DNA from: Silvimonas amylolytica
GTDB taxonomy: Bacteria; Pseudomonadota; Gammaproteobacteria; Burkholderiales; Chitinibacteraceae
Direction of reading: 5' to 3'
Length of the DNA stretch: 64,000 nucleotides
Assembly (NCBI RefSeq): GCF_014645555.1
Contig: NZ_BMLY01000003.1
Coordinates: 304,598-368,597 of the forward strand
Shown here in pieces: positions 39,791 to 43,468 of the stretch. A program made the translations under genes and the position numbers. The notes beneath the pieces are model-generated. The model was not told the origin of the DNA, ran no database searches, and was given only the letters and a program-made list of their open reading frames with translations. Numbering within the stretch: the first letter of the stretch is position 1; every line of letters starts with the position of its first letter.

Positions 39791-39819
39791 TTGAAACTGA
39801 AACAATAGAAAGTTATCGT
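39791..39819 (+). promoter_or_regulatory. candidate sigma-70 promoter of the membrane glycolipid operon
   Basis: TTGAAA (39791-39796), exactly 17 bases, then TATCGT (39814-39819). A start near 39827 would leave a ~40-base leader containing the GGAGG ribosome-binding site at 39855. An ACTGC-AAAATC-GCAGT inverted repeat lies just upstream at 39746-39761. The rest of the ~370-bp gap after mmsA shows only the terminator. Confidence 0.45.
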
Positions 39820-39866: not shown

Positions 39867-40241
39867 ATGTCCCGGCTCATTTTTACGCTGATCCTGATTA
39901 GTGTCAGTTGCTCAGCCTGTGCGCAGATGCTGCTCAAACGCGGCATGGTGGATGAAGGCATTCAGCGCGCATTGCATTCCATGAATCTGCCCGCGCTGGC
40001 TACCGGCGTTGCGCTGAATCCTTGGGTGCTGGGCGGCTTGATGCTGTATTTCGGCGGCGCAGTGGTGTGGCTGGGTGTCCTGGCGCGTGTGGATGTCAGC
40101 ACAGCGTATCCGTTTGTGGCCTTGGGTCTGATCGTGACGGTCGTGCTGGGTGGCCTGGTTTTCCATGAACAGGTCTCTGCATGGAAGATTATTGGCAGCT
40201 GTATCGTGGCGCTGGGTGTTTACATCGTGGGGACCAAATGA
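39867..40241 (+). CDS. SMR/ArnE-like small membrane flippase
   Basis: A 124-residue protein with four predicted transmembrane helices. It resembles the ArnE/ArnF branch of the EmrE superfamily: SCSACAQMLLKRGM in helix 1, WVLGGLMLYFGGAVVWLGVL, and the C-terminal WKIIGSCIVALGVYIVG. ArnE/F-type proteins flip undecaprenyl-phosphate-linked aminoarabinose across the inner membrane. GGAGGGAAGGC precedes the ATG. Its TGA overlaps the ATG of the HAD-UbiA gene (ATGA), which indicates tight translational coupling. Proposed role: flipping the polyprenyl-phosphate sugar made by the next enzyme (inference). Confidence 0.82.
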   Translation: MSRLIFTLILISVSCSACAQMLLKRGMVDEGIQRALHSMNLPALATGVALNPWVLGGLMLYFGGAVVWLGVLARVDVSTAYPFVALGLIVTVVLGGLVFHEQVSAWKIIGSCIVALGVYIVGTK

Positions 40242-41728
40242 GCACGACTGATTTTGCAGCCCAACCGGCACAGCCGGTTCAGCCGGCGCAAACACCGCGC
40301 CCACGTTATCTGTTTGTGGATCTGGACGGCACGCTGGTGCATACCGACATGCTGGTCGAGTCTTTGCTGTTCCAGATCAAACGCTCTGTGTGGACTTTCT
40401 TCAGGGTTATTTTCTGGTTGTTTGGTGGCAAGGCTGACCTGAAAAAGAAACTGGCGACGGACTTCGAGTTCGACCCTTCATTGCTGCCCTATAACCCCGC
40501 AGTGCTTAAATATGTGGATGAATCACGCAAGGCGGGCATCGAAGTCTGGTTGGCGACAGCCTCGGACGAACGCATTGCAGATGCGGTCGCCAGACACCTG
40601 AAGGTGTTTGACGGGGTGCTGGCTTCGGGTAACGGCGTGAATGTTTCCAGTACCCGCAAGCTTGATGCCATCAAACAAGTGGTTGGGCAGCGCAGCTTTG
40701 AATACATCGGCAATAGCGCAGACGACGTGGCGATCTGGCAGGAAGCGGGTGTGGCGCGTTGTGTGCGGCCAGACAGTGCCGCACGTGCCTGGTTTATGCG
40801 CACGCAAGGTCAGGTTGCAGAATTGACCGAAGAGACGCCGGTGCGTGGTCTGTGGAAGTCGTTTGTCCGCGCCGCCCGTGTCCATCAATGGCTGAAAAAC
40901 ATTCTGGTATTCATTCCACTGCTGGTGTCGCACAAGCTGGGCAATTTTGCTTCTGCGGGTGCTGGCGTGGCGACTTTCATCGCGTTTGGGCTGTGCGCGT
41001 CGTCTATCTACCTGGTCAATGATTTGCTGGATCTGGAGTCTGACCGACTGCATCCGCGCAAGCGCAAGCGTCCATTTGCTTCGGGCGAATTGCCGCTCGG
41101 CGTAGGCTTTGTTGCGGTGCCGGTGCTCCTGCTGGTCGGCCTGCTGCTGGCGGCGGTGATCTCTCCACAGTTGCTGGCCGTATTGCTGGTGTACCTGTTA
41201 CTGACCAGTGCTTATTCATTCAGCTTTAAACGCAAGATGGCCGTGGATGTGGTGCTGCTGGCCGCGCTTTATACCATTCGCATCATTGCCGGTGCGGCTG
41301 CGATCAGTGTCGTGCCCTCGTTCTGGCTCCTGGCGTTCTCCATGTTTATCTTCCTGGGGCTAGCGCTGGTCAAGCGCTATACCGAACTCCTGGCGCTGGA
41401 AGAAGCAGGGCGGGAGAAAGTCTCTGGCCGCAATTATCTGGTGGCTGACCAGTATGTGGTGATGGCCATGGGCGTATCCAGCTGCTTGCTCAGCGTGCTG
41501 GTGCTGGCGTTGTACATCAACAGCCCGGATGTCGGTTCGTTATACAAGACGCCACAGGTGCTATGGGGTTTGTGTCCGCTCTTGATGTTCTGGGTGTGCC
41601 GCCTGTGGCTGATGGCGAACCGGGGTCTGGTTCAGGATGATCCGGTGGTGTTTGCAGTGCGTGACCGCGTGAGTCAGCAAACCGTGCTGGTCGGCGTGAC
41701 GATCATCGCACTCGGTGCATTCCTGTGA
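40238..41728 (+). CDS. HAD-UbiA fusion, polyprenyl-phosphate phosphoribosyltransferase-like
   Basis: A 496-residue bifunctional protein. Residues ~20-200 are a HAD phosphatase (motif I FVDLDGTLVHTD, motif II VWLATASDER, motif IV YIGNSADDVAIW). Residues ~215-496 form a UbiA prenyltransferase with about eight helices. The UbiA motif NDLLDLESDRLHPRKRKRPF, and KRYTELLALEEAG with LYTIRIIAGAAA, match the Rv3806c-type subfamily. That subfamily transfers 5-phosphoribose from PRPP to decaprenyl phosphate rather than making quinones (recalled). The fused HAD could remove the 5-phosphate. It lies between a flippase-like gene and a GT-C-like gene. DprE1/DprE2 epimerase genes are not in the window. Confidence 0.85.
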   Translation: MSTTDFAAQPAQPVQPAQTPRPRYLFVDLDGTLVHTDMLVESLLFQIKRSVWTFFRVIFWLFGGKADLKKKLATDFEFDPSLLPYNPAVLKYVDESRKAGIEVWLATASDERIADAVARHLKVFDGVLASGNGVNVSSTRKLDAIKQVVGQRSFEYIGNSADDVAIWQEAGVARCVRPDSAARAWFMRTQGQVAELTEETPVRGLWKSFVRAARVHQWLKNILVFIPLLVSHKLGNFASAGAGVATFIAFGLCASSIYLVNDLLDLESDRLHPRKRKRPFASGELPLGVGFVAVPVLLLVGLLLAAVISPQLLAVLLVYLLLTSAYSFSFKRKMAVDVVLLAALYTIRIIAGAAAISVVPSFWLLAFSMFIFLGLALVKRYTELLALEEAGREKVSGRNYLVADQYVVMAMGVSSCLLSVLVLALYINSPDVGSLYKTPQVLWGLCPLLMFWVCRLWLMANRGLVQDDPVVFAVRDRVSQQTVLVGVTIIALGAFL

Positions 41729-41777
41729 GGCGGTTGAGTGGCGTCATGCCTTTCACGATGCCGGCCGGGAGCTCCCG

Positions 41778-42956
41778 ATGATTGATAATGTGGCTGTGTT
41801 GACGCCCCAGACCTCTGACCGGGTCGGCAGGTCCTGGCGTAGCCTTGTCACCGCGACGCTGCAGGTCGTGCCGTTTCTGGCGCTGTTCTTTGTCAGCTGT
41901 GCCGCAGCCTATGGCAGTTTCTTTGCCAAATGGGGGTTTTGCAGCACCGGCGTTGACCCGGATGCACCGTGTTTATTGCAGGAAATGCTGGATGGCACGG
42001 CCAAAAGGCCATGGATTTACCGCCGTCTGGTGCCGGAGTTGGCCCAGTGGCTGCAGGTGCATACGCCAGCCGGTTTGCAAGCCAGGCTGGAGAGCATGTT
42101 GCAGGCCGACAATATGGCGCAGCATTATTCTGCGGTGATCGCCGCGGTGAATCAGCCAGCTGCCTTGCAGATCACGTTTTACTATGTCTATCTGCTGGGT
42201 TTTGTCGCCTTTGTTGGCGCGGCAGTCGTGATGTGGCGCATCGGCATGCAGTTGACTGCAGACCGTTTTGCGTCTGCCCTTGCCGCCACCGTGTTTGTGC
42301 TGGTCTTCCCCATGTTCCTCACGGTGGGCGGCAATTTCTACGACTTTTCCGAACTCTTTTTCTACGCCATGGCGTTCTGGCTGGCGCTGTGTTTTTCTCC
42401 TGGCTGGCTGGTGTTGCTGGCACCACTGGCGACGTATAACAAAGAAGCGTTTTTCTTTTTCTCGGTCACTTTGTTTCCATTGCTGGCCAATCGCTTTGGC
42501 TGGCGCAAAGGTGGCCTCTGGACGTTACTGGTCTTGCTGGTCAGCGGCATCACATATTCGGTGGTCAAAACGCACTACGCGGGAAACCCGGGCGGGGTGG
42601 TGCAGTTTCATTTGTGGGACCAACTGCATTATTTTCGTTACCCTGGGCACCTGAAAGGGTTCGAGTTCCAGTATGGCCTGGTGACGCCCAAGAGCTTCAA
42701 CCTGATCAATATTTTGCTGGTGGTCATGCTGGTGCGCACGGGTTGGCTGCCTTTGCCCAGGCAGGTCAAGCAGTATCTCTGGTTGGCGCTGGCGGTGAAT
42801 GTGCCGCTGTTTTTGCTGTTCTGCTATCCGGGCGAAATACGCAATCTGAGCATGTTGTACATGGGTCTTGTGAGCATGCTGGCTTGCGGGTTGTCGTACA
42901 CCATGACCCGTTTTTATCAGGGCCGGGTGACCGATGACGCTGGCACGCCGCGCTGA
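41778..42956 (+). CDS. polytopic membrane protein, GT-C-like
   Basis: A 392-residue inner-membrane protein with about nine to ten hydrophobic segments. After the first helix there is a periplasmic loop with CSTGVDPDAPC and KRPWIYRRLVPELAQWLQ. The RPWIYRRLVP pattern is typical of a group of uncharacterised bacterial membrane proteins with GT-C glycosyltransferase-like topology. GGGAG lies seven bases before the ATG. Following a predicted lipid-sugar synthase and a flippase, it is a candidate for the transferase that uses the flipped lipid-linked sugar. Function is inferred from context only. Confidence 0.65.
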   Translation: MIDNVAVLTPQTSDRVGRSWRSLVTATLQVVPFLALFFVSCAAAYGSFFAKWGFCSTGVDPDAPCLLQEMLDGTAKRPWIYRRLVPELAQWLQVHTPAGLQARLESMLQADNMAQHYSAVIAAVNQPAALQITFYYVYLLGFVAFVGAAVVMWRIGMQLTADRFASALAATVFVLVFPMFLTVGGNFYDFSELFFYAMAFWLALCFSPGWLVLLAPLATYNKEAFFFFSVTLFPLLANRFGWRKGGLWTLLVLLVSGITYSVVKTHYAGNPGGVVQFHLWDQLHYFRYPGHLKGFEFQYGLVTPKSFNLINILLVVMLVRTGWLPLPRQVKQYLWLALAVNVPLFLLFCYPGEIRNLSMLYMGLVSMLACGLSYTMTRFYQGRVTDDAGTPR

Positions 42957-43006
42957 GCAGCCTCTGGTAGACTGGCAGGCCCGTAGACGTCCAGGCTGGT
43001 CTTTAC

Positions 43007-43468
43007 ATGAAAGTTGCTGCCAGGGGCAAAACGCCCGTTTCCTCTCACGCTGCGCAAGGTCGTCCCGGCTCGTTGCGCATCACCTTGCTGGTGGCCCTGC
43101 TGTCCGCGTTGACCTTGTCACTGGCGGGCATCATTCTGGCTTCGCGCGCTTATGATCGGCGAGATGGCACGGTGTCCGCTCCGGGCAAGGTCGTGAACAT
43201 GATTGGGCCTCAGGGCAGTAGCGATGCCAAACCCCTGGTGCGTTTCAGCACGCCGGATGGCCAGATTGTCGATTTTGTCCCCCTGCAGACGGGTAAATGG
43301 CCGGCCCTTCGTCAGGGTGATCAGGTGACCGTCATGTACCCGCCGGATCACCCCGGTGCGGCCCAGGTCAACCAGTTTACCGAGCAATGGCTGCCTGCCA
43401 TCGTATGTGGTGCAGGGGCAGTGCTGGCCTGGCTGGTGGCACTTGTACTACGCCGCAAAGCCGGCTGA
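43007..43468 (+). CDS. DUF3592-type membrane protein
   Basis: A 153-residue protein with an N-terminal membrane helix (~25-47), a ~75-residue soluble beta-rich domain, and a C-terminal helix (~128-148). PLVRFSTPDGQIVDF and GDQVTVMYPPDHP are typical of DUF3592, whose function is unknown. It follows the GT-C-like gene by 50 bp and may belong to the same transcript. Confidence 0.7.
   Translation: MKVAARGKTPVSSHAAQGRPGSLRITLLVALLSALTLSLAGIILASRAYDRRDGTVSAPGKVVNMIGPQGSSDAKPLVRFSTPDGQIVDFVPLQTGKWPALRQGDQVTVMYPPDHPGAAQVNQFTEQWLPAIVCGAGAVLAWLVALVLRRKAG

Follow-up and report, generated by a model that had tools for sequence, protein, structure and literature searches.

A putative ribofuranosylation cassette with an exchangeable GT-C gene in Silvimonas amylolytica

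Introduction

The mycobacterial pathway for decaprenyl-phosphate arabinose comprises Rv3806c, Rv3807c, DprE1/DprE2, Rv3789, and the Emb/Aft enzymes, and the Gtr O-antigen glucosylation cassettes of Salmonella and Shigella comprise GtrA, GtrB, and a type-specific GT-C enzyme. Here we analyze a locus of the soil bacterium Silvimonas amylolytica that resembles each of them in part: a three-gene cassette at positions 39867-42956 of a 64,000-nucleotide stretch (the window; contig NZ_BMLY01000003.1) of the 4.56-Mb host genome, with genes for a polyprenyl-phosphate phosphoribosyltransferase (PPPRS), a flippase, and a GT-C protein in one unit. Like the mycobacterial pathway, the cassette has a first enzyme of the Rv3806c family and a GT-C transferase with the fold of AftA, AftB, and AftD, but it has no DprE1, its HAD phosphatase is not of the Rv3807c type, its flippase is an ArnE-like SMR protein, and its transferase has no detectable sequence similarity to Emb/Aft. 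Like Gtr cassettes, it combines conserved donor and flippase genes with an exchangeable GT-C gene, but its donor would come from phosphoribosyl pyrophosphate (PRPP) via a UbiA phosphoribosyltransferase instead of from UDP-glucose via GtrB, and its flippase belongs to the SMR rather than the GtrA class.

The closest described system is that of Citrobacter youngae O1 (Kelly et al., PNAS 2024, PMC11127046). There, a HAD-UbiA-type fusion (ORF15, PRP-PPPRS) makes lipid-linked ribose from PRPP, and its D18A variant accumulates the 5-phosphate form; an ArnE-like protein with four transmembrane (TM) segments, ORF14, is the probable flippase; and the GT-C enzyme ORF12, which founded family GT136, transfers the ribose. 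O1 lacks an epimerase and bears alpha-ribofuranose; in O2 a single SDR changes the sugar from ribose to xylose, both of which ORF12 accepts. The authors describe the three-component system as widespread. The window shares this architecture, with an N-terminal HAD domain fused to a UbiA-type PPPRS, an ArnE-like four-TM flippase, a GT-C protein, and no epimerase. It differs in lying outside any obvious O-antigen locus and in its GT-C protein, which has 392 amino acids and no carbohydrate-binding module (CBM), whereas ORF12 has about 652 with a C-terminal CBM (residues 503-652, reported dispensable). An initial annotation of the window had regarded the pathway as undescribed, a claim that the C. 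youngae work overturns: the cassette adds a further example of a published route, and the new parts are the transferase family, its swapping between species, and a rule relating flippase class to sugar.

Results

We consider it likely, from homology and gene context, that the cassette is a three-component extracytoplasmic ribofuranosylation system. Its features are as follows.

39867..40241, + strand: SMR/EamA-type four-TM protein, putative polyprenyl-phosphate-ribose flippase (ArnE/ArnF-like), 124 amino acids; EamA match, ArnF/ArnE matches weak
40238..41728, + strand: HAD-UbiA fusion, N-terminal 5'-phosphate phosphatase and C-terminal PPPRS (predicted), 496 amino acids; matches NF006088 and PDB 8j8j
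40304..40820 (approximate), + strand: HAD phosphatase half, Pfam HAD; DLDGT nucleophile D28/D30, T107, K141, GNSADD 158-163
40850..41710 (approximate), + strand: UbiA/PPPRS half; N261, D262, D265, D269, R380, E383
41778..42956, + strand: GT-C fold glycosyltransferase, putative pentofuranosyltransferase, 392 amino acids; AlphaFold model and structural matches, relatives linked to PPPRS genes

The SMR and HAD-UbiA genes are coupled by an ATGA overlap, and 49 bp separate the fusion from the GT-C gene. Because all four Silvimonas genomes keep the order SMR, HAD-UbiA, GT-C, DUF3592, we regard these genes as coding and conserved rather than chance reading frames. Gene positions, overlap, and gap had all been given correctly by the initial annotation, as had the two UbiA sequence motifs described below.

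Over its full length, the HAD-UbiA fusion scored 619.9 bits against the NCBIfam HAD-UbiA family NF006088 (cut-off, 351). The next-best models were three decaprenyl-phosphate phosphoribosyltransferase families, at 158, 143, and 118 bits and below their equivalog cut-offs, while all quinone, heme, chlorophyll, and archaeal-lipid UbiA models stayed at or below 42 bits. The only strong PDB matches were the mycobacterial enzyme structures 8j8j and 8j8k (best 8j8j, E of 4e-29). The UbiA half contains both the ND..D...DR.HP.KR.RP motif and KRYTELLALEEAG, and its residues N261, D262, D265, D269, R380, and E383 stand at offsets (0, +1, +4, +8, +119, +122) identical to those of N247, D248, D251, D255, R366, and E369, residues of C. 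youngae ORF15 that were mutated by Kelly et al. (2024, PMC11127046). On the strength of profile scores, PDB matches, and this residue spacing, the UbiA half is assigned to the Rv3806c-type phosphoribosyltransferases and not to the quinone or heme families, as initially annotated. The HAD half exceeded the Pfam HAD cut-off at 33.9 bits, and the nucleophile pair D28/D30 and K141 are conserved.

The SMR protein passed the Pfam EamA cut-off at 28.5 bits, and its best NCBIfam scores were below the equivalog cut-offs (ArnF, 35.4 versus 99; ArnE, 27.1 versus 92); judged by these scores, it is a related SMR/EamA protein and not ArnE itself. It is 85-98% identical, with its gene adjacent, in all four Silvimonas genomes.

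The GT-C protein matched nothing in Pfam, NCBIfam, PHROGs, or PDB sequence searches, including those with a first four-member profile, and belongs to a family for which Pfam, NCBIfam, and PHROGs have no model. An AlphaFold model built with 28 homologues reached a pLDDT of 83 and a pTM of 0.86; an earlier model from four sequences was poor (pLDDT 48) and was not used. When structures were ranked with VIA-align, the 36 best matches were all GT-C-type membrane enzymes or close fold relatives or complexes (Z of 7.9-17.5), including ArnT (15.0), AftD (13.5), AftA (13.3), and AftB (12.9), along with oligosaccharyltransferases, PglB, Pmt4, DPY19, the GPI transamidase PIG-U, PimE, ALG3/6/9, and EmbA, and the next, unrelated rows had Z values of 6.3 or less. 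We relied on this ranking because Foldseek alone gave no match at E of ≤0.001; the viral structure library likewise gave none at that threshold. With Z values of >13 across 270-300 residues and matches that are uniformly of one kind, a chance fold match is unlikely, and the model confirms with confidence the GT-C fold suspected in the initial annotation.

Invariant residues of the family are placed by the model in the loop after TM1 (W52, P78, Y81, and R82) and at later helix ends (D189/E192, N221-K222-E223, E353, R355, and N356). Position 72, acidic in 11 of 12 diverse family members, is a candidate catalytic base. No C-terminal CBM was found, the model being helical to residue 387 with no C-terminal beta domain.

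Within the host family, Silvimonas alone carried this GT-C family (4 of 43 genomes). Distant relatives (22-41%) were present in 16 species of one other genus, g362, when 268 genomes of its family were searched, and in that genus a UbiA phosphoribosyltransferase gene lay upstream of the GT-C gene in 16 of 16 genomes, with an SMR gene between them in 15. The end of an unfused HAD gene preceded UbiA in all but one locus, and eight of the 16 genomes had two GT-C copies. Genome G542 has the order HAD, UbiA, SMR, GT-C, GT-C, with gene ends overlapping or nearly touching, and its unfused UbiA protein passed the NCBIfam phosphoribosyltransferase cut-off (263.7 versus 234). GT-C relatives also adjoined HAD-UbiA genes in two Burkholderia records (Burkholderia multivorans and B. 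arboris) and, with a 4-bp overlap, on a Sphingomonadaceae plasmid.

Two of these loci have peculiarities of their own. The g362 locus that lacks the preceding HAD gene end (L153, G1162:C65) is also the sole case of the 16 with no SMR gene between UbiA and GT-C, which prompts one to ask what serves as the flippase at that locus. The plasmid of the Sphingomonadaceae leaf isolate (CP099616.1, L119:6352-10564) carries, in tandem, genes for a hypothetical protein of 518 amino acids, the relative of the GT-C protein, and HAD-UbiA. An integrase and an acyltransferase gene lie close by, and this may be a mobile form of the cassette. A phage origin was considered and is not supported, as viral contigs held no relative of either protein and the phage collection matched only as a UbiA fragment of 41% coverage.

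Comparison of the window with another Silvimonas genome, G001, pointed to exchange of the GT-C gene. Protein identities were 96.5% for the aldehyde dehydrogenase, 96.8% for both SMR and HAD, 93.5% for UbiA, and 92.8% for the M20 peptidase, versus 45% for the GT-C protein. Nucleotide identity dropped at position 41700, from roughly 85% to roughly 55%, and recovered after about 43050. Because G001 ranks with the nearest relatives when flanks are compared but is the farthest when GT-C proteins are (G002 and G003 have 78% and 56% GT-C identity), we conclude that the gene was replaced and did not merely drift. Serotype-converting Gtr cassettes show such a pattern, and by analogy the acceptor or linkage would be determined by the GT-C gene.

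A DprE1-like query found only a GlcE-like protein in the window's genome (23 bits), and the DprE1 model NF053785 gave only partial FAD-domain matches of ≤55 bits there, versus a full-length match of 317 bits in the true DprE operon of genome G455. We used the model and the query because the ALO Pfam domain, which had no match in the window's genome, detects DprE1 poorly (even a DprE1-like protein scored only 15 bits). By these searches DprE1 is absent from the whole genome; none was found in the other three Silvimonas genomes or in 14 tested g362 genomes, and no epimerase lies in or beside the cassette. The G455 cluster (L129:1836-6698, G455:C22) encodes a UbiA phosphoribosyltransferase, DUF212-like and GtrA-like proteins, DprE1, and DprE2, and within this DprE1/DprE2 operon a weak GT-C relative (29 bits over 131 positions) with a similar motif order (DGTA, NRE, EPR).

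A survey took in the 80 top-ranking HAD-UbiA loci from named genomes (L031-L110), with DprE1-like genes scored within about 8 kb; 59 had such a gene and 21 did not. Of the 21 loci lacking DprE1, 18 had an SMR gene, versus 2 of the 59 with DprE1 (Fisher, 6e-13), and none had a GtrA-like gene, versus 43 of the 59 (Fisher, 1e-9); the loci counted are not independent, nine being from Azospirillum. Loci of the SMR type without DprE1 come from about eleven lineages, among them Silvimonas, Stenotrophomonas, Xanthomonas, Novosphingobium, Serpens, Rhodoferax, and Polynucleobacter. Flippase class would appear to follow the sugar, SMR without DprE1 and GtrA with it. The recurrence of the gene set without dprE1, a question raised by the initial annotation, is borne out in Silvimonas, g362, and these loci.

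Azospirillum loci in this survey encode a protein of ~950-1005 amino acids in which a GT87-family GT-C domain (PF09594, 63-69 bits) precedes HAD and UbiA in one reading frame, with an SMR gene after it. This fusion was recognized by Pfam in L099 (6564-9407), L034, and L101 and by reading-frame length in L048, L063, L071, and L080. The portions of Kelly et al. consulted (PMC11127046) make no mention of a transferase fused to its donor synthase.

Discussion

In the mechanism we propose, the UbiA half would transfer 5-phosphoribose from PRPP to a polyprenyl phosphate, probably undecaprenyl phosphate, at the cytoplasmic face, and the fused HAD half would remove the 5'-phosphate. The SMR protein would flip polyprenyl-phosphate ribofuranose to the periplasm, where the GT-C protein would pass the ribofuranose to a surface glycan or glycoprotein by inversion, probably in alpha linkage. 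The GT-C gene would be the exchangeable, specificity-setting part, as the allele exchange suggests. Phosphoribosyl transfer and dephosphorylation have been demonstrated in the homologue of the same architecture, and for the window we infer them from conserved residues; we also infer flipping, transfer, linkage, and sugar identity in Silvimonas. The chemistry and the three roles assigned by the initial annotation are well supported by homologues, and none of the outcomes it had listed as contrary (UbiA clustering elsewhere, dprE homologues, or unconserved gene order) was found, with a reservation for an enzyme of the DprE2 or SDR type encoded elsewhere.

Several observations weigh against a ribofuranosylation system. 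The catalytic assignments in Silvimonas derive from homologues, and motif IV of the HAD half is GNSADD, not GD..D, although other family members, such as that of L046, have GNSADD too. GT-C relatives on Caballeronia plasmids and in genome G775 do not adjoin a PPPRS gene, two HAD-UbiA genes lying elsewhere in G775. SDR epimerases are too common for sequence to rule out an unlinked DprE2- or SDR-type enzyme, as in C. youngae O2.

That last point underlies the most serious competing explanation, in which the same cassette works with an epimerase encoded elsewhere (of the ORF13 SDR or DprE2 type) and transfers xylofuranose or arabinofuranose. The O2 SDR and the tolerance of ORF12 for both sugars (PMC11127046) give it a precedent, but we think it unlikely given the lack of an epimerase in or beside the cassette, the DprE1 results for Silvimonas and g362, and the SMR flippases that DprE1-less loci carry as a class. 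It is quite improbable that the GT-C protein uses another donor and owes its operon position to accident. Caballeronia relatives beside a polysaccharide deacetylase and a glycosyltransferase would fit such a role, but PPPRS adjacency recurs in several independent arrangements (SMR-fusion-GT-C, HAD-UbiA-SMR-GT-C with or without a second GT-C, GT-C-fusion, and fusion-GT-C). Generic Pfam UbiA membership would also admit a quinone, heme, or archaeal-lipid prenyltransferase in a cassette unrelated to pentoses; the gap between phosphoribosyltransferase and other UbiA scores and the score of the unfused G542 equivalent make this scarcely credible.

Under the preferred ribofuranosylation reading, the route is built of separable modules and is not confined to O-antigen loci: one donor module serves unrelated GT-C enzymes, occurs with a phosphatase that is fused or free, and is paired with either of two flippase classes, which divide according to whether DprE1 is present. 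The GT-C protein becomes a defined candidate for founding a new glycosyltransferase family, and whether ribose or an epimer is added at a given locus could be predicted by a testable rule. We advance only tentatively, with slightly more doubt than belief, a broader proposal: that the protein founds a compact, CBM-less family of polyprenyl-phosphate-ribose-dependent ribofuranosyltransferases, distinct from GT136, spread across Beta- and Alphaproteobacteria, tandem-duplicated in one genus, and swapped among Silvimonas species so that ribose goes to a different glycan or position, with flippase class (SMR versus GtrA) matching donor epimerization.

The cassette sits among metabolic genes, with no obvious O-antigen locus: open reading frames named from their translations as aminotransferase-like and aldehyde-dehydrogenase-like lie upstream, and M20-peptidase-like and YdjC-like ones downstream. 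All four Silvimonas genomes have O-antigen ligase/Wzy-type genes at other sites, which makes an O-antigen acceptor possible. In G001, a second phosphoribosyltransferase, this one unfused, lies beside a small DUF212-like membrane protein (L132:6480-7781, G001:C7), in an apparent O-antigen locus with rml-like and manB/manC-like genes and an ABC transporter; no such second enzyme was found in the window's genome. The promoter initially proposed for the cassette, at 39791-39819 (9 of 12 matches), did not rise above chance, the scan giving 3 sites versus 2.0 +/- 1.4 expected. One further gene follows the cassette.

43007..43468, + strand: DUF3592-like small membrane protein, 50 bp downstream of the GT-C gene; Pfam match below cut-off

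The gene is where the initial annotation placed it, but its family match fell just short (24.9 bits versus a Pfam cut-off of 25.3). It is probably a neighbor kept in Silvimonas and not a core part of the cassette. The protein diverges fast, with identities of 86, 73, and 39% in three Silvimonas relatives whose flanks are well kept.

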